Shown: piece by piece, positions 4,561 to 14,991 of the stretch
Layout of the letters: each line of letters begins with the position of its first letter
Position numbering within the stretch: position 1 is the first letter of the stretch
DNA from: Bacteroidota bacterium
GTDB taxonomy: Bacteria; Bacteroidota; Bacteroidia; Flavobacteriales_D; Crocinitomicaceae
DNA: 37,535 bases
Assembly (NCBI GenBank): GCA_006227105.1
Contig: SBFR01000204.1
Location: 1-37,535, forward strand
Direction: 5' to 3'
Position numbers and translations under genes: made by a program
The notes under the pieces: generated by a model
What the model saw: the letters and a program-made list of their open reading frames with translations, nothing else
What the model was told of the DNA's origin: nothing
Databases searched by the model: none

Positions 4561-4627
4561 TTATTTGACTTCAAATCGGTATATTCATAGGTTTGTGATG
4601 TTCAATGAAGCAGAGCAACTAAACCTA

Positions 4628-7318
4628 ATGAAAAAGTTAACGAACATATTTGATCTTTTTCTTCAAACCAGAATCCAAAAGTGGGTTTTCGTTTTTGGCG
4701 TTTTTTGTAGTTCAGTGTCATTTTCTCAGACAGTATTTACCGAGGGATTTGAAGGTGGAACAAGTTATCCAACTCCTTCTGGATGGAACACTTCAGGATC
4801 ATGGACCATAAACAATGGCGGTGGACATACAGGATCTAATTATGCAAGATTATCAGCTGGTCAAACTAATCGTTATTTATTTACTCAAACTTTTACCGCA
4901 ACCGTAGGTTGGACTTATAATTTATCATATTGGGATATTGCATCAGGATCGTCAGGAAACTCACTGGCGATCTATGTATCTAATTTAAATCCAGGATCTC
5001 AAAGTATTGCTAATACAAATTCTGGAGCAAATTACATAGGTGGAACCAATTCGGGAACTTCATCAACATCATGGCTAAATGAAAACTCAACTGATTGGGT
5101 TTGTCCAGCTTCTGGAACATATTTTTTTGCATTTGTAGCCACTACAGGTTCGAGTAGTGCAGTTATGAGAATTGACGATGTAGTTCTAACGAAGACGGCT
5201 CCATCATGCACAGCACCCTCTACGATTCCTAGCGCCGTGAATACTTCATTCTTAAGTTCACAATATGCTACCGTTAACTGGAATCCAGGCTCTGGAGACA
5301 ATTCTTTAGTAGTTGTTAGTCCTGGGGCATTAAGTTCATTGCCTGCAAACGGAATAAGCTATACAGGAAATTCAGCCTATGGAGCGGGAAGCGCATTAGG
5401 AAACGGATATGTTGTATACAATGGTTCTGCGTCTACGGTTAGTATTAATAGCTTGGTAAGAAATACTTCATATACTGTCACTATTTTTACTTATAACAAC
5501 ACGGCAACTTGTTACAACACTACACCAGCTACATTAAACTTTAACACAACAAATGGAGCTGGAGCCTTCTATGTTGATGACAATTCTAATTTAAACGATG
5601 TTTATACTGTCGGATCTACTTCCGGTAGTGACGCAACTGAAGGGAAAAGACTAACACCTTTTGCATCCCTCACAAAAGCTTTTACTGTAGTTCAGGCTGG
5701 AGACACGATCTACGTTGATGCTGGAACCTATTCTGACGCCTTGAATAAAGATTTGAATCTTCCGGTAACTGGATTAAAAATTTTGGGAGCCGGAATGCAA
5801 CTTACCATCTTCGATAATGGATCAAATTCTGATCATTATTTCATGCGCATCGACAAAAACAACACGACCTTATCAGATATGACCATAAGAAGTTATGCAG
5901 CCCAAACATGCGGGGGAGGAGCAAATGGTCAGGCGTTAGGCGTTATAGGTGCAACCGGGGTTAACATTATCAATGTTCTTGTTGACAAAACGGCGACCTC
6001 AAGTGATGGCTGCGGTTACCCAATTGAAGTAAAAGGTGGTGCATCTGCAACTTTCCAAGGTGGAGGGGCAACCTGCAATAACTATCTTGCAGGTGGTGGT
6101 ATACGCGTCACAGGGCCTACCACAGTCTTGACAATTAAAAATTACTTATTCTACGGTAATTCAAAATATACGGATAATGGTGCCTCTCTTCATGTTACAG
6201 ACGGAAATGTGATTGTTCAGAATACCAAATTCAAGAATAACGAATCTAGAAATGATAAAAGAGGAGCTGGAGTTTATCAAACAGGCGGTACAATGTCAGT
6301 ATTTGATTGCGAATTTGATCAAAACATAACATGGCTTGCATACGATCAAGTTGGAGGAACAATTCTGGTTACTGGTGGAAATTTCACCATAAAACGCTCC
6401 GTAATCAAGAACCACACTCAATTAGGTGGAAGTACCTCTTATGGTGCGGGAATAGGTGTAATGAACGGAACTGCATATATTGATTCGTGCTACTTCGAAG
6501 GAAATGATGGTGACCTTGGTCATGCAACTGACATTTTCACATCAGGCGGTAATGTGTTTGTCAGAAATTGTTCTTTGTCATCCGCTAGTAATCGAATTGG
6601 ATCAACAGGAGGAACAACAACCATAAATAACTCTGGTTCATTTACCCCAAGTTACTCTGTTGGTATGACTTTCCTAAATACATTGGACACAAGCTACACC
6701 GCTAATCCAACAGTTCCTCAATTCATAGGTGATTGTCCAACTGGCATCACAATCCTCCCTGTAGAGCTTTCTTCTTTCACAGGTAAATGTCTCGATGGAA
6801 TGGGAGCATTGACATGGACAACTGATTCTGAGCACAACAATGCGTATTTCACTGTAGAAAGATCTCAGGACGACAATGATTATACTGCTCTTTCCTTTGT
6901 TAACGGTGCTATCAATACAACAGAGAAGTCTGAATATCGTTTCCTGGACACTGAAATGCAAAAAGGGACGAATTATTACCGATTATCTCAGACTGATCTT
7001 GATGGACAAACAAGAATTCTGGAGACCATCGCAATCGAAAATAACTGTTTCGGGAATGGCTTAGAGGAAACCGCTTTCGTTGTTGACGCAGTGAACAACC
7101 AAGTGCTTTTACTCATGAATGTTGAGCATAAAGTGAACTTCGAATTTACATTGACAGATAACATGGGTAGGCTTTTACTTCACAAAGATTTAACAGCCGA
7201 TCCCCATCAGAATAAAGTTACTATACTACTACCCGATTCTATGGCAGCAGGTGTTTATCACCTGACTGTCACGGATGGAAGTATAAGAGTTAATAACAAA
7301 GTTTTCATGAACAAGTAA
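4628..7318 (+). CDS. Large secreted protein: N-terminal adhesion-like module, parallel beta-helix (pectate-lyase-like) region, T9SS type A-like C-terminus
   Basis: ATG at 4628 (MKKLTNIFDLFLQ...FSQTVFTEGFEGG); beta-helix-like GGNVFVRNCSLSSASN; LPVELSSFTGKCLDGMGALTWTTDSEHNNAYFTVERSQD...AGVYHLTVTDGSIRVNNKVFMNK tail. The TTG at 4565 in the track is less likely. Confidence 0.85.
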   Translation: MKKLTNIFDLFLQTRIQKWVFVFGVFCSSVSFSQTVFTEGFEGGTSYPTPSGWNTSGSWTINNGGGHTGSNYARLSAGQTNRYLFTQTFTATVGWTYNLSYWDIASGSSGNSLAIYVSNLNPGSQSIANTNSGANYIGGTNSGTSSTSWLNENSTDWVCPASGTYFFAFVATTGSSSAVMRIDDVVLTKTAPSCTAPSTIPSAVNTSFLSSQYATVNWNPGSGDNSLVVVSPGALSSLPANGISYTGNSAYGAGSALGNGYVVYNGSASTVSINSLVRNTSYTVTIFTYNNTATCYNTTPATLNFNTTNGAGAFYVDDNSNLNDVYTVGSTSGSDATEGKRLTPFASLTKAFTVVQAGDTIYVDAGTYSDALNKDLNLPVTGLKILGAGMQLTIFDNGSNSDHYFMRIDKNNTTLSDMTIRSYAAQTCGGGANGQALGVIGATGVNIINVLVDKTATSSDGCGYPIEVKGGASATFQGGGATCNNYLAGGGIRVTGPTTVLTIKNYLFYGNSKYTDNGASLHVTDGNVIVQNTKFKNNESRNDKRGAGVYQTGGTMSVFDCEFDQNITWLAYDQVGGTILVTGGNFTIKRSVIKNHTQLGGSTSYGAGIGVMNGTAYIDSCYFEGNDGDLGHATDIFTSGGNVFVRNCSLSSASNRIGSTGGTTTINNSGSFTPSYSVGMTFLNTLDTSYTANPTVPQFIGDCPTGITILPVELSSFTGKCLDGMGALTWTTDSEHNNAYFTVERSQDDNDYTALSFVNGAINTTEKSEYRFLDTEMQKGTNYYRLSQTDLDGQTRILETIAIENNCFGNGLEETAFVVDAVNNQVLLLMNVEHKVNFEFTLTDNMGRLLLHKDLTADPHQNKVTILLPDSMAAGVYHLTVTDGSIRVNNKVFMNK

Positions 7319-7341
7319 AGTTAGGTTTAGTTAGGTTAGGT

Positions 7342-7401
7342 ATGAAGCAGACAATTATCACAACACCAATCATTTTTGTTATTCAGCACTACGCTGAGTG
7401 A
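7342..7401 (+). CDS. Putative ilv leader peptide MKQTIITTPIIFVIQHYAE (attenuator peptide)
   Basis: ATG at 7342, TGA at 7399-7401; 19 codons with 5 Ile, 1 Val and 3 Thr, just upstream of a terminator hairpin and ilvE. Confidence 0.8.
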   Translation: MKQTIITTPIIFVIQHYAE

Positions 7402-7454
7402 GAATTGCTGCTTCTAAAGAATTCGGCCTTTCTCACATAGAGAAAGGCCTTTTT
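7381..7454 (+). promoter_or_regulatory. Transcription attenuator with alternative 1:2, 2:3 and 3:4 RNA structures upstream of the ilv operon
   Basis: 1:2 pairing 7381-7384/7402-7405 plus 7387-7390/7397-7400; 2:3 antiterminator GTGAGAA 7398-7404 / TTCTCAC 7430-7436 plus GCTG 7407-7410 / CGGC 7424-7427; 3:4 terminator 7425-7434/7440-7449. Confidence 0.75.
7425..7454 (+). terminator. Intrinsic terminator (attenuator hairpin)
   Basis: GGCCTTTCTC-ACATA-GAGAAAGGCC perfect 10-bp stem followed by TTTTTG. Confidence 0.85.
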
Positions 7455-7479
7455 GTTAAAGGATTAAAAGTTAAAAGTT

Positions 7480-8367
7480 ATGTATTACACGGATGAAACA
7501 GTTGTTTTTTTAAATGGCGAATTTGTAAAAGCAAAAGATGCTCAAGTTGGTCTTTATAATCAGACCATGCACTATGGAAATGGCGTTTTCGAAGGGATTC
7601 GTTCATATGATACTCCAGACGGCACAAGGATCTTTAAAGCCAAGGAACACTTTGACAGATTGCATTATTCTGCAAAAATGATGCATATCAACCTTACCTA
7701 TTCTTCTGAAGAACTTGAGCAAATCACATATAAACTATTAGAACTAAATGGTCAAAAGGACGCATACATACGGCCTCTGGTTTATCTTGGAGATAATATG
7801 TCCCTGACTCCGACCGACGAGGTACACGTGGTGATCATGACGTGGGAATGGGGAAAATACCTTGGAGATAAAATGCTGAAAGTGATGCTTTCTTCTTATC
7901 AACGACCAAACCCTAAAGCATGTCATGTTGAAGCGAAAGTGGTTGGTCACTATACCAATTCAATACTTGCCACGACAGAAGCCAAAAGCAAAGGATTTGA
8001 CGAAGCCCTACTTACAGATATGAACGGTAACGTCGCTGAAGGTCCTGGGGCAAATTTCTTCTTCGAAAAAGATGGAAAACTGGTAACTGCACCTTTGGGT
8101 AATATCCTTTCCGGAATAACACGTGCCACCGTTCTAGAACTTTCAAAAGAGCTTGGAATCGAGGTTGAAGAGCGATTCTTTAAACCAGAAGAAATAACAA
8201 CTGCGGATGCAGCTTTCTTCTGTGGAACAGCAGCAGAAGTAATTGGAATAGAGCAATACAATGATTATCGATTCCCAATGAAATGGGAGGACACAAATGG
8301 TCATCTTGTACAGCGAATGTACAAACGCAGAGTCTCTACGAATGAATTCAAAGAAGTTTATTTATAA
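7480..8367 (+). CDS. ilvE: Branched-chain amino acid aminotransferase
   Basis: Fold-type IV aminotransferase: MHYGNGVFEGIRSYDTPDG...EALLTDMNGNVAEGPGANFFF; first gene of the ilv operon. Confidence 0.93.
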   Translation: MYYTDETVVFLNGEFVKAKDAQVGLYNQTMHYGNGVFEGIRSYDTPDGTRIFKAKEHFDRLHYSAKMMHINLTYSSEELEQITYKLLELNGQKDAYIRPLVYLGDNMSLTPTDEVHVVIMTWEWGKYLGDKMLKVMLSSYQRPNPKACHVEAKVVGHYTNSILATTEAKSKGFDEALLTDMNGNVAEGPGANFFFEKDGKLVTAPLGNILSGITRATVLELSKELGIEVEERFFKPEEITTADAAFFCGTAAEVIGIEQYNDYRFPMKWEDTNGHLVQRMYKRRVSTNEFKEVYL

Positions 8368-8370
8368 ACC

Positions 8371-10044
8371 ATGGAACTCAATAAATACAGTAAAACCATT
8401 ACTCAAGACGAGACACAACCTGCAGCACAAGCGATGTTGTATGGGATCGGTCTGACTGAAGACGACTTGAAAAAAGCTCAGGTGGGGATCGTGAGCACCG
8501 GCTACGAAGGCAACACTTGTAACATGCACCTGAATGATCTGGCAAAAAATATTAAAAAGTCAGTTTGGGAGAAAGACCTCGTTGGATTGATCTTCAATAC
8601 GATCGGAGTCAGTGATGGGATCTCTAATGGAACTGACGGGATGCGTTTTTCATTAGTTTCCAGAGACATTATCGCTGATTCTATAGAAACAGTTATGGGT
8701 GCACAATGGTACGATGCGATGATCGCTGTTGTTGGATGTGATAAAAACATGCCCGGTTCTGTCATCGCCATGGGGAGATTGAATCGTCCAGCGATCATGG
8801 TGTACGGTGGAACTATCCATTCCGGAAACTGGAAAGGTGAATCATTGAATATCGTCTCAGCATTCGAAGCGTTGGGTAAGAAATTCAGTAATACGATCAC
8901 ACCTGAAGACTTTAAAGGAATCATAAAAAGTGCTTGTCCGGGAGCGGGTGCCTGTGGCGGAATGTATACCGCTAATACCATGTCCTCTGCGATCGAAGCT
9001 TTGGGAATGAGCCTTCCATATAGCTCTTCCAATCCGGCATTAAGTGAAGACAAGCAACGAGAATGTGAGGAAGCAGGCGCCGCTATCCGCCTGTTACTTG
9101 AAAAAGATATCAAACCACGAGATATCATGACCATGAAAGCATTCGAAAATGCGATCACAATGGTAATGGTACTTGGAGGATCAACCAATGCGGTACTTCA
9201 CCTCATCGCCATGGCTCATTCAGTTGGATTGAAGCTGACAGTAGATGATGTCCAGCGATTTAGTGACAAAACACCGGTCCTTGGTGATCTTAAACCAAGC
9301 GGAAAGTATTTGATGGAAGATCTGCATCGTGTTGGTGGCGTGCCTGCGGTAATGAAGTATCTGCTGAAAAAAGGATTGATCCATGGCGATTGTTTAACTG
9401 TCACAGGAAAAACAGTAGCTGAGAATCTCTCTGCCGTTCCTGATCTGATGGAAGGACAAGATGTATTCCATGCTCTTGAAGATCCAATCAAACCAACTGG
9501 TCATTTACAAGTGCTCTATGGGAATCTTGCAGAAGAAGGATCGGTAGCCAAAATAAGCGGAAAGGAAGGAGAATACTTCGAAGGAACTGCTGTAGTTTTT
9601 GAAGATGAATTCACAGTGATCGATGGTGTAAGAGAAGGCCGTGTGAAACCAGGTAATGTTGTAGTGATCAGATATTGTGGACCAAAAGGTGGTCCGGGAA
9701 TGCCTGAAATGCTTAAACCTACCTCAGCGATCATGGGAGCAGGTCTTGGTTCATCGGTTGCCTTGATCACAGATGGACGATTCTCCGGTGGCACCCATGG
9801 ATTTGTTGTGGGACATATCACTCCAGAAGCCTTTACAGGAGGAAATATTGCATTGGTTAAAGATGGTGATAAGATCTCTATCGATGCAGTAAATAACCAG
9901 CTTACACTTCACATAAGTAATGAGGAGTTGGAAGCAAGAAGAAAAGAGTGGAAACAGCCGGATCTAAAAGTAAAGCAAGGTGTGCTTTATCGTTATGCCA
10001 AATGCGTGGCATCAGCATCTGAGGGTTGTATAACAGATAAATAA
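8371..10044 (+). CDS. ilvD: Dihydroxy-acid dehydratase
   Basis: [70 protein letters not shown]. Confidence 0.96.
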
Positions 10045-10050
10045 TTTGTG

Positions 10051-11736
10051 ATGAAAATAAGAGGAGCAGAAGCAGTTATGCAAAGCCTTGTTCAGGAAAA
10101 AGTTGAAACCATATTTGGTTATCCTGGCGGCGCCATCATGCCGATCTATGATGCTTTGTATGATTTCAGAGATACTGTAAACCATGTATTGGTAAGACAT
10201 GAACAAGGTGCAATTCACGCAGCTCAAGGATTTGCGAGAACCTCAGGAAAAGTTGGGGTTTGTTTTGCAACTTCAGGCCCGGGAGCGACTAACCTGATCA
10301 CAGGATTAGCAGATGCAATGATCGACTCTACACCTGTGGTTTGTATCACAGGACAAGTTGCTTCCCATCTATTGGGAACAGATGCATTTCAGGAAACGGA
10401 TGTCATCGGTATTTCGATGCCGGTCACCAAGTGGAACATACAGGTTACCCGAGCGGAGGATATCTCAGGAGCAATTGCAAGAGCTTTCTATATCGCAAGA
10501 TCCGGAAGACCAGGCCCAGTGCTGGTAGATATCACGAAGGACGCACAGTTCGGAATGGTTGACTTTTCATACGAACCTTGCACTAAGATCAGAAGCTATC
10601 AACCCACCCCTGTCGTTGATGAGCAAACCCTTCAGGAAGCAGCGGCACTCATTAATCAGGCAAAAAAACCATATATACTGGTCGGACAAGGGATCTTTTT
10701 ATCCAACGCCGAAAAAGAGATCCTTGATTTTGCAGAAAAGACTGGAATTCCTGTAGCCTCTACCCTGCTTGGATTAGGTTCATTTCCGTCTGACCATCCT
10801 TTGTACGTCGGTTATCTTGGAATGCATGGTAATTATGCTCCAAACGTGTTAACCAACGAATGCGACGTACTTATTGCCGTGGGAATGCGCTTCGATGACC
10901 GAGTGACAGGAGATGTTTCAAGGTATGCGAAACAAGCCAAGGTGATCCATATTGATATCGATAAAGCAGAATTGAACAAGATCATTAAAGCTGAAGTAGC
11001 AATACACGCAGATGCCAAAGATGCACTGCAAAAATTGAGTGCACTTGTTAATCACAATGAGCATCCACAATGGTTACAACAGTTCAGAGACCTTGAAGCT
11101 GTCGAAAAAAGTGAAGTAGTCGATGAAGCGATTCATCCATCAAGTGATCAACTGAAAATGGCCGAGGTGGTGAATTTACTTTCGGAAAAAACCGACGGTA
11201 AAGCAATTATAGTAACCGATGTTGGTCAGCATCAAATGATCAGTTCAAGATATTACAAGTACAGAGGACATCGAAATAATGTAACCTCAGGAGGACTCGG
11301 AACCATGGGATTTGGGCTTCCTGCCGCAATTGGAGCGAAACTCGGTAATCCTAAGCAGACTGTAGTTGCGATCATCGGCGATGGAGGTTTCCAGATGACC
11401 ATACAAGAATTGGGTACCATACTTCAATCCAAAGTGGATGTCAAGATCCTGATCCTGAACAATAACTTCCTGGGAATGGTAAGACAATGGCAACAGCTTT
11501 TCTTTGACCGAAGATATTCGTTCACGGAGATCGTGAACCCAAATTTTACTGCAATCGCCAAAGGATATTCGATCGATGCATTGAAGATCGAAGAGCGAAA
11601 TCAGTTAGATGAAGCGCTAACTACAATGTTGAATTCCAAAGGAGCTTTCCTTCTGGAAGTCGTTGTAGAGCAGGAAGAAAATGTATTCCCAATGGTTGAA
11701 ACCGGAGCATCTGTTTCAGAAATCCGATTGAATTAA
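10051..11736 (+). CDS. ilvB: Acetolactate synthase large subunit
   Basis: ThDP enzyme: GYPGGAIMPIYDALYD, RHEQGAIHAAQGFARTSGKVGVCFATSGPGATNL, IGDGGFQMT. ATG at 10051; the track starts at GTG 10048. Confidence 0.95.
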   Translation: MKIRGAEAVMQSLVQEKVETIFGYPGGAIMPIYDALYDFRDTVNHVLVRHEQGAIHAAQGFARTSGKVGVCFATSGPGATNLITGLADAMIDSTPVVCITGQVASHLLGTDAFQETDVIGISMPVTKWNIQVTRAEDISGAIARAFYIARSGRPGPVLVDITKDAQFGMVDFSYEPCTKIRSYQPTPVVDEQTLQEAAALINQAKKPYILVGQGIFLSNAEKEILDFAEKTGIPVASTLLGLGSFPSDHPLYVGYLGMHGNYAPNVLTNECDVLIAVGMRFDDRVTGDVSRYAKQAKVIHIDIDKAELNKIIKAEVAIHADAKDALQKLSALVNHNEHPQWLQQFRDLEAVEKSEVVDEAIHPSSDQLKMAEVVNLLSEKTDGKAIIVTDVGQHQMISSRYYKYRGHRNNVTSGGLGTMGFGLPAAIGAKLGNPKQTVVAIIGDGGFQMTIQELGTILQSKVDVKILILNNNFLGMVRQWQQLFFDRRYSFTEIVNPNFTAIAKGYSIDALKIEERNQLDEALTTMLNSKGAFLLEVVVEQEENVFPMVETGASVSEIRLN

Positions 11737-11746
11737 TTGAATAAAA

Positions 11747-12265
11747 ATGGAAACAGTATATAACATATCTGTCTTTACAGAAAACAGTATCGGGATCCTG
11801 AACCGCATCACGATCATTTTCACTCGAAGACACCTGAATATCGAAAGCATCACGGCTTCTGAATCTGAAGTAAAAGGTGTCTATCGATATACCATCGTTG
11901 TGAAAACGGATCTGGATCAAGTTAAAAAGGTTGTTGCACAGATCGAAAAACAAGTCGAGGTACTGAAAGCATTCTTTCATTCGGATGATCAAGTGGTTCA
12001 TCAGGAGATTGCTCTTTATAAAATCGCAACGGAATCATTTGTAAACGGAAGTACTGAAAAGATCGTCCGAGAACATCATGCACGAATCTTAACCGTAGAC
12101 AAAGAATTTACGATCATTGAAAAAACAGGGCAACCAGAGGAGCTGCAAGCGCTTTTCAATGAGCTGGACACCTATGGTGTTTTGGAATTCGTGCGCTCAG
12201 GAAGAGTGGCGATCTCAAAACCGATGAAAACATTAGAAACCTATTTAAAAGAGTTAGAAGCATAA
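11747..12265 (+). CDS. ilvN: Acetolactate synthase small subunit
   Basis: N-terminal ACT domain [37 protein letters not shown]; directly after ilvB. Confidence 0.93.
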
Positions 12266-12269
12266 CGTC

Positions 12270-13739
12270 ATGGAAAATTATTTCAATTCATTACCGTTTA
12301 GAAAACAAGTCGAACAATTATCAATGTGCGAATTCCTGGATCGATCGCATTTTGAAAGAGGAGTAGAAGAACTTATTGGAAAGAAGATCGTGATCGTTGG
12401 TTGTGGCGCTCAGGGATTGAATCAGGGTTTGAACATGAGAGATTCGGGTCTTGATATTTCTTATGCCCTAAGAACAGATGCCATTTCAGAGAAAAGAGCT
12501 TCTTGGAAAAATGCCGTTGAGAATGGCTTCACGGTCGGCACGTACCAGGAACTTATTCCATCTGCCGATCTTGTTTTGAATTTAACTCCAGATAAACAAC
12601 ATACGGCTGTAGTGAATGCGATCATGCCTCTCATGAAAAAAGGTGCGACTCTTTCGTATTCTCACGGATTCAATATTGTTGAAGAAGGAATGAAGATCCG
12701 CGAAGATATTACAGTGATCATGGTTGCTCCAAAATGCCCGGGAACTGAAGTTCGCGAGGAATACAAACGAGGATTCGGTGTACCTACTTTGATCGCTGTG
12801 CATCCGGAAAATGATCCAGAGGGAAAAGGACTTGAGCAAGCAAAAGCATACGCTGCCGCGACAGGAGGTCATCGAGCAGGAGTACTTCTTTCTTCCTTTG
12901 TAGCCGAGGTGAAATCTGACTTGATGGGTGAGCAAACCATCCTTTGTGGCGTATTGCAAACTGCATCCATACTCTGTTTCGACAAAATGGTTGAAAAAGG
13001 AATGGATCAGGGATATGCATCCAAATTGATCCAATACGGTTGGGAAGCGATCACTGAAGCATTGAAGCATGGGGGCATCACGAACATGATGGATCGATTG
13101 AATAATCCATCGAAGATCAAAGCATACGACCTGGCTGATGAATTGAAATTGATCATGACACCTTTGTTTAAAAAGCACATGGACGATATCATGAGTGGAG
13201 CGTTTTCTTCACGAATGATGACAGATTGGAAAAACGGTGACAAAGAGTTGCTTGAATGGAGAAAAGCGACCGGCGAGACTGCCTTTGAGAAAGCACAAAA
13301 CACGTCTACAGAAATATCAGATCAGGAATTCTTTGATCATGGAACGCTTATGGTTGCATTCGTGAAAGCAGGTGTCGAATTAGCCTACGAAACGATGACT
13401 TCAACAGGAATTGTTGCTGAATCAGCGTACTATGAATCACTTCATGAAGCACCTTTGATCGCGAATACGATAGCGCGTAAAAAACTCTATGAAATGAACC
13501 GGATCATCTCTGACACTGCTGAGTATGGTTGTTATCTATTCGATCATGCATGCAAGCCTTTGCTGGCAGATTTCATGAAGAAAATGGATACGAATGTGAT
13601 CGGAAGGGCCTATTCAAGTAACAACCAGGTTGATAATTCTGAATTGATCGATGTCAACAGATCTATCCGTGAACACGAGATCGAAATCGTTGGTGCGTAT
13701 TTACGAGAGGCAATGACAGATATGAAAAAATTGAATTGA
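12270..13739 (+). CDS. ilvC: Ketol-acid reductoisomerase (long class II type, 489 aa)
   Basis: [65 protein letters not shown]. Confidence 0.95.
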
Positions 13740-13746
13740 CCTAGGG

Positions 13747-14991
13747 ATGGACTTATTAGAAGAAATACAAGAAGCCAGGTTAAGACTGAAGGGAGTGGTA
13801 AATGAAACTCCCTGTAATCTGAGTGTGAATCTTTCTGAACAGCATCAAGCGACTGTCTATCTGAAAAGAGAGGATCTGCAAACCGTACGTTCATATAAGA
13901 TCAGAGGTGCATATAATAAGATTAACTCTCTGGATAACCATGAACGAAACAGAAAGATCGTTTGTGCCAGTGCAGGGAATCATGCGCAGGGAGTAGCCTA
14001 TTCTTGTAATCTACTGAATATCGAAGGCGTGATTTTCATGCCTGCCACAACCCCAAAGCAAAAAATCAAACAAGTCGAGCTTTTCGGAAAAGACAAAATT
14101 GAAATTGTTCTTACTGGAGACACCTTTGATGATGCATACGCGAAAGCACAGCAATATTGTTCACTTCACAATTGTGTTTTCGTTCATCCTTTTGACGACC
14201 AAAAAGTGATTGCCGGACAAGGAACAATCGGCCTGGAAATAATCGATCAGATCAAGGGACCTATCGACTTTTTGATATTGCCGGTCGGCGGAGGTGGATT
14301 GGCAGCAGGAGTTACGACCGTATTCAAAGCACTAAGTCCCCAAACAACCATCATTGGTGTTGAACCAGAGGGAGCACCATCCATGAAAAAATCTCTTGAG
14401 AAAGGCGAAATTGTCACGTTGGACAACATTGACAAATTTGTAGATGGCGCAGCTGTCAAGCGAGTAGGAGATCTGAATTTCTCCATTTGTAAAAATACAT
14501 TGGATGAAATGCTTGTTGTGCCAGAAGGTAAAGTATGTTCAACCATACTCAAATTATACAATGAAGAAGCAATGGTTGTTGAGCCGGCAGGTGCTTTAAG
14601 TATTGCAGTGCTCGATTCATTGAGTGATCATATCAAGGGAAAAACCGTAGTATGTATCGTTAGCGGAAGCAACAATGACATTACCAGAACAGAAGAGATC
14701 AAAGAAAGATCGCTTTTCTATGAAGGGCTAAAACACTATTTCCTCATCCAGTTTCCTCAGCGTCCAGGAGCATTAAAGGATTTCGTAACAGATGTACTCG
14801 GACCAAATGATGACATTACCTTCTTCCAGTTTTCAAAAAAGAACAATCGGGAGAGTGGACCTGCCGTTGTTGGTATTGAAGTGAAAAACGCTACAGATTT
14901 TCAGAAGATCAAGGTTAATCTTGAACGACTGCAATTCCATTTTCAATATCTGAATGACGATCCCACCCTATTCAACCAGCTCATCGGTTAA
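13747..14991 (+). CDS. ilvA: Threonine ammonia-lyase with C-terminal ACT-like domain
   Basis: LKREDLQTVRSYKIRGAYNKI, CASAGNHAQGVAYSC, PVGGGGLAAGV. Confidence 0.94.
   Translation: MDLLEEIQEARLRLKGVVNETPCNLSVNLSEQHQATVYLKREDLQTVRSYKIRGAYNKINSLDNHERNRKIVCASAGNHAQGVAYSCNLLNIEGVIFMPATTPKQKIKQVELFGKDKIEIVLTGDTFDDAYAKAQQYCSLHNCVFVHPFDDQKVIAGQGTIGLEIIDQIKGPIDFLILPVGGGGLAAGVTTVFKALSPQTTIIGVEPEGAPSMKKSLEKGEIVTLDNIDKFVDGAAVKRVGDLNFSICKNTLDEMLVVPEGKVCSTILKLYNEEAMVVEPAGALSIAVLDSLSDHIKGKTVVCIVSGSNNDITRTEEIKERSLFYEGLKHYFLIQFPQRPGALKDFVTDVLGPNDDITFFQFSKKNNRESGPAVVGIEVKNATDFQKIKVNLERLQFHFQYLNDDPTLFNQLIG

Follow-up and report, generated by a model that had tools for sequence, protein, structure and literature searches.

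A probable ribosome-mediated transcription attenuator with an isoleucine-rich leader peptide upstream of the ilvEDBNCA operon in a Bacteroidota bacterium

Does the short isoleucine-rich reading frame in front of the ilv operon of an aquatic Bacteroidota bacterium belong to a transcription attenuator governed by the translating ribosome? The best-known cases of leader-peptide attenuation come from Proteobacteria and Actinobacteria, and attenuation in bacteria was reportedly treated in a comparative study by Lopatovskaya in 2010. A 2010 survey was aware of no case shown outside these two groups before its own in Firmicutes (PMC2965389). The window analysed here is a stretch of 37,535 nucleotides (contig SBFR01000204.1) from a genome of 2.9 Mb that is 88.8 % complete and has metagenome-assembled genomes of the Crocinitomicaceae/Flavobacteriales as its nearest relatives. 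We conclude that the locus very probably holds a ribosome-mediated transcription attenuator of the ilvEDBNCA operon, a reading built on the anatomy, conservation, covariation and predicted folding states given below.

When the sequence from 6900 to 7700 was read, the leader ORF (MKQTIITTPIIFVIQHYAE) was found at 7342-7401 of the forward strand, which also carries all other features described for this locus, with its ATG at 7342 and its TGA at 7399-7401. Its 19 codons include five Ile (starting at 7354, 7357, 7369, 7372 and 7381), one Val (7378) and three Thr codons (7351, 7360 and 7363), all at the positions given in the initial annotation. The regulatory codons (Ile5, Ile6, Ile10, Ile11, Val13 and Ile14) span 7354-7383. 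This short ORF, rich in codons for the operon's products, lies directly 5' of the ilv genes, and the order ilvE-D-B-N-C-A was confirmed by NCBIfam matches above the cut-off for all six: ilvE as the first gene (branched-chain amino acid transaminase, 7480-8367, TIGR01122), ilvD (dihydroxy-acid dehydratase, 8371-10044, TIGR00110), ilvB (acetolactate synthase large subunit, 10048-11736, TIGR00118), ilvN (its small subunit, 11747-12265, TIGR00119), ilvC (ketol-acid reductoisomerase, 12270-13739, NF003557 and TIGR00465) and ilvA (threonine ammonia-lyase, 13747-14991, TIGR02079 and NF006390). Between the leader ORF and ilvE stands an intrinsic terminator (7425-7454), a 10 bp stem (7425-7434/7440-7449) followed by TTTTT (7450-7454), which an independent terminator search recovered where the 3:4 pairing had been proposed. 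A scan of both strands of the window found one Ile/Val leader and terminator module only.

The 126-nt leader region has a minimum free energy (MFE) of -42.6 kcal/mol (z = -6.6), which was matched by 0 of 200 shuffles. In the MFE fold, region 1 (7344-7361) pairs with 7398-7414 in a 1:2 stem (7344-7350/7408-7414, 7352-7356/7403-7407 and 7358-7361/7398-7401) that joins leader codons 1-7 to the stop-codon region and the RNA that follows it and, with its inner hairpin, amounts to about -24.6 kcal/mol. The 1:2 pairing suggested at first (7381-7384/7402-7405 plus 7387-7390/7397-7400) is possible, but the dominant stem is longer and lies elsewhere. Its outer part is a perfect 13 bp in the close relative L001; the stem is clear in the Crocinitomicaceae and weak in Tenacibaculum and Flavobacterium. 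A local hairpin (7383-7397, pairing 7383-7387 with 7393-7397) can coexist with the antiterminator. For the antiterminator itself, folding reproduced exactly the 2:3 pairing that had been described (GTGAGAA 7398-7404/TTCTCAC 7430-7436 plus GCTG 7407-7410/CGGC 7424-7427). Region 2 (7398-7410), its 5' arm, runs across the leader stop codon and covaries with the terminator arm, and region 3 (7424-7436), its 3' arm, overlaps the 5' arm of the terminator (7425-7434). The energies of the two hairpins are -15.2 (2:3) and -16.6 kcal/mol (3:4).

Constrained folding was applied to a paused transcript (3' end at 7440, before region 4) with the ribosome footprint masked. The footprint reached about 12 nt beyond the first base of the A-site codon, an extent taken from E. 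coli ribosomes. The probability of 2:3 was 0.99-1.0 with a ribosome on Ile5, 6, 10, 11 or 14 and 0 without a ribosome or with one at the stop codon, which is the switching put forward in the initial annotation (terminator on stop-codon masking, antiterminator on an Ile stall). In these computations the antiterminator and the terminator are mutually exclusive, a ribosome that has reached the stop codon covers the 5' arm of the antiterminator, and the 1:2 stem keeps the terminator on when the leader is untranslated. Once region 4 was present, the terminator won thermodynamically in every ribosome state. Because the full-length RNA favours the terminator, antitermination must be kinetic, as in classical attenuators.

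We infer translation of the leader ORF, ribosome stalling caused by uncharged tRNA, and control of the operon through this stalling. A ribosome would translate the 19-codon Ile-rich ORF while RNA polymerase transcribes the leader. With sufficient charged tRNA-Ile, and probably also tRNA-Val, it would reach the TGA at 7399 and cover region 2; the terminator (7425-7449) would then form and transcription would end near 7454. If charged tRNA-Ile ran short, the ribosome would stall at the Ile codons between 5 and 14, open the 1:2 stem and leave region 2 free to capture region 3 (7398-7410/7424-7436), and the polymerase would read into ilvE. In an untranslated leader, 1:2 would form and would again lead to the terminator.

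The 700 nt upstream of ilvE were scanned in 80 loci encoding IlvE relatives (Flavobacteriales and Cytophagales), and an Ile/Val-rich leader with a terminator was found in 68 of them. The 12 module-negative loci include two that end at a contig edge, several whose module scores lower but can be recognised by eye, and five from Flavobacterium in which ilvE lies directly behind a coding sequence. The leader peptides are diverse and all are Ile/Val-rich (for example MKQAIIIPIIIIIPME, MKNSFNIVIVILVIIIQLIN, MYNNTVIINNTIIVWTT and MKSINIIVVLVIVSVINMTAKGDW). Among the ten closest sequences, indels in the leader ORF measure 3 and 6 nt, both multiples of three, and GTGAGA and CCTTTCTCA are invariant. Such indels, like the codon bias described below, are at most an indirect sign that the ORF may be translated. 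The leader stop of L002 and L003 is displaced 9 nt further upstream with GTGAGA retained, which indicates that this segment is conserved for pairing and not as a stop codon. Conservation of the Thr codons was looked for in the relatives and none was found; Thr sensing is thus unsupported and was rejected. Of the control proposed at the outset, by charged tRNA-Ile and perhaps tRNA-Val and tRNA-Thr, the codons still suggest a response to Ile, and in the relatives to Val, but not to Thr.

A second survey, around ilvD in 61 Bacteroidota genomes, found the module in several families; in many others it was missing, which is weak evidence because another gene than ilvD often comes first. None of 46 reverse-strand decoys carried the module. 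Two Bacteroidales-type matches in this survey (L088 and L091) were discounted as apparent chance. When leuA was searched for in the relatives, no convincing leuA was found.

Could the hairpin be the plain terminator of the gene in front, and the Ile-rich ORF a chance frame? This gene (4565-7318) encodes a secreted protein of 917 aa without a match in the NCBIfam search; the terminator lies about 107 nt past its stop, and homologues (30-52 % identity) are syntenic before ilvE in 13 relatives. However, the module persists without the gene (68 loci with the module against 13 with the gene), and a plain terminator would leave unexplained the Ile/Val-richness, the covariation between stop codon and terminator and the codon bias described below. 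We therefore regard this explanation as very improbable, and the hairpin may additionally terminate upstream transcripts. Only 23 nt (7319-7341), with TTAGG-like repeats (GTTAGGTTTAGTTAGGTTAGGT), separate the upstream stop from the leader ATG. The canonical Bacteroidota promoter (TTG-N-TAnnTTTG) is present upstream of the leader in many relatives and was not found upstream of the window's leader, where the near-match TAGGTTTA at 7322 is the only candidate. The ilv transcript may start at this weak site or arise by read-through from the gene in front.

Covariation was measured in 42 non-redundant modules using 18 nt around the stop codon. This segment paired with its own terminator arm better than with permuted ones (14.8 versus 11.7 ± 0.41; z = 7.5; 0 of 20000), and the leader start paired with the post-stop segment (1:2) better than swapped controls did (z = 5.0 in 29 leaders, 0 of 20000; z = 4.7 in the Crocinitomicaceae-like set), z values that are optimistic because permutation leaves phylogenetic structure in. 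Whole helices are replaced between clades (GTGAGAA:TTCTCAC, TTGATACAG:CTGTGTCAA, GACGAGA:TCTCGTC and AGGAAGC:GCTTCCT), and this change is independent of the permutation z values. In Cytophagales the segment that pairs is found 6-13 nt before the stop codon ends, a place that a terminating ribosome would still cover. The initial annotation had proposed to check related genomes for stems that covary and for Ile/Val codons that are conserved, and both were observed.

Outside the paired segments the primary sequence of the related loci is not conserved, whereas the encoded Ile/Val-richness is. This argues against control of the same terminator by a riboswitch, a T-box, a ppGpp riboswitch or an RNA-binding protein, which also typically act through a terminator upstream of a biosynthetic operon. 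Rfam searches of the window, the leader region and the related loci gave no match, T-box and ppGpp riboswitch included; for the leader region there was only a spurious miRNA match (E 0.71) and none at the gathering score. We consider such control extremely improbable. Purely translational action, in which the leader ribosome re-initiates at ilvE or unmasks it with termination unaffected, is scarcely credible: it is common to find short leader ORFs close to genes, and reinitiation has been proposed for closely spaced ORFs, 11-14 bp in Bacteroidetes (PMC4833913), but here 78 nt, including the terminator, separate the leader stop from ilvE, and the leader-ilvE spacing varies widely among the relatives.

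Synonymous codons are not used randomly in the 70 distinct ilv leaders (chi2 p ~ 1e-16 for Ile and 1e-57 for Val, p values that ignore phylogeny). The Ile codons ATT, ATC and ATA occur 330, 59 and 42 times in the leaders versus 456, 220 and 204 times in the ilvE genes, and GTC accounts for 82 of 155 Val codons in the leaders versus 59 of 948 in the genes. The GTC share is 62 %, 68 % and 41 % in Crocinitomicaceae-like, Cytophagales and Tenacibaculum leaders (8 %, 7 % and 7 % in genes), with five Flavobacterium leaders (4 GTT) as an exception. The sole Val codon of the window's leader is GTT. The only tRNA-Val found in its genome, which is incomplete and has two weak, untyped tRNA matches, carries the anticodon UAC, so that GTC would be the poorest-read Val codon. 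Charging of isoacceptors has been proposed to set the sensitivity of attenuators (PMC1183508).

Corresponding leaders were found at two other pathways. A His-rich leader with a terminator precedes hisG in 7/7 genomes of the same family that have hisG, including the genome of the window (MNFIQLHHHHFHTCSQAS; L116 1332-1455, contig C183). A promoter-like motif (TATATTTG) was seen by eye upstream of this his leader. All three full-length trpE genes (L140, L141 and L142) are preceded by a Trp-rich leader (e.g. MKTQYTNWWWHTTFRWCDWQ) and a terminator. The search for trpE in the window's own genome gave partial and weak matches, not a full-length one, and no Trp leader is therefore expected there. The Bacteroid-trp RNA (RF01692) is also a cis-regulatory, trp-named element of Bacteroidetes (PMC2864571); none of the trpE, hisG and ilv loci tested matched it at the gathering score. 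The agreement between leader residue and pathway would be hard to explain unless decoding were the signal.

Two Ile/Val leader and terminator modules stand in series upstream of ilvE in 23 of the 80 loci, e.g. MKKQILNIISIIVIVIISQG and then MNQFFNIVVIIIVIISSPPS. They occur in Tenacibaculum (L050, L053-L057, L059, L060, L064-L066, L068-L071, L074-L076 and L080) and in L012, L042, L043 and L078, and were seen by eye in L046 and L047. Like these tandem ilv modules, the tandem attenuators of Salmonella mgtCBR have two short ORFs per leader that govern transcription; they differ in operon and signals, and the window has a single module (PMC3641672). In a search limited to the open-access literature, we found no earlier description of tandem ilv attenuators or of the leader codon skew.

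The logic of enterobacterial ilv attenuation, which had been invoked for this locus, agrees with its anatomy, conservation, covariation and folding. The ilvGMEDA/ilvBN, his and trp attenuators of enterobacteria share with it a leader rich in cognate codons, exclusive 1:2/2:3/3:4 pairings, a stop codon adjoining region 2, an intrinsic terminator and a biosynthetic operon. The likeness drawn here is one of design. The leader is Ile/Val-rich here and Ile/Val/Leu-rich there, and here region 1 includes the beginning of the leader ORF, which has no evident Shine-Dalgarno sequence. Bacteroidota make little use of Shine-Dalgarno sequences. Branched-chain-residue-rich uORFs with a terminator likewise precede ilv genes in the Corynebacterium ilvB-II, ilvB-OMG and Leptospira ilvB motifs, which belong to other phyla, have other sequences and stand before ilvB instead of ilvE (PMC10272879). 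In Bacteroides thetaiotaomicron, long 5' UTRs contain short ORFs resembling leader peptides (PMC7366714). For Flavobacterium psychrophilum, of the same phylum and class, leader-peptide attenuation of amino-acid biosynthesis operons was proposed from transcriptome data; the main text of that report gives no operon names or structures, so ilv may be among them (PMC9723704). The principle thus has a precedent in Flavobacteria.

The ilv leader is very likely a real device and a well-conserved branch of a known kind of attenuator. More tentatively, with chances that we would put somewhat under even, the Flavobacteriales and Cytophagales may have a large number of undescribed leader-peptide attenuators, independent of Shine-Dalgarno sequences, at their ilv, his and trp operons; among these, tandem Ile/Val attenuators would sharpen the response and leader codons would be those least well decoded by the isoacceptor (GTC, tRNA-Val(UAC)). 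The results give base-pair-level comparative support for leader-peptide attenuation in Bacteroidota. The skewed Val and Ile codons of the leaders make the isoacceptor-charging idea testable in a new phylum, and the cultured genera Flavobacterium, Tenacibaculum and Fulvivirga are ready test systems for the coupling of transcription and translation.
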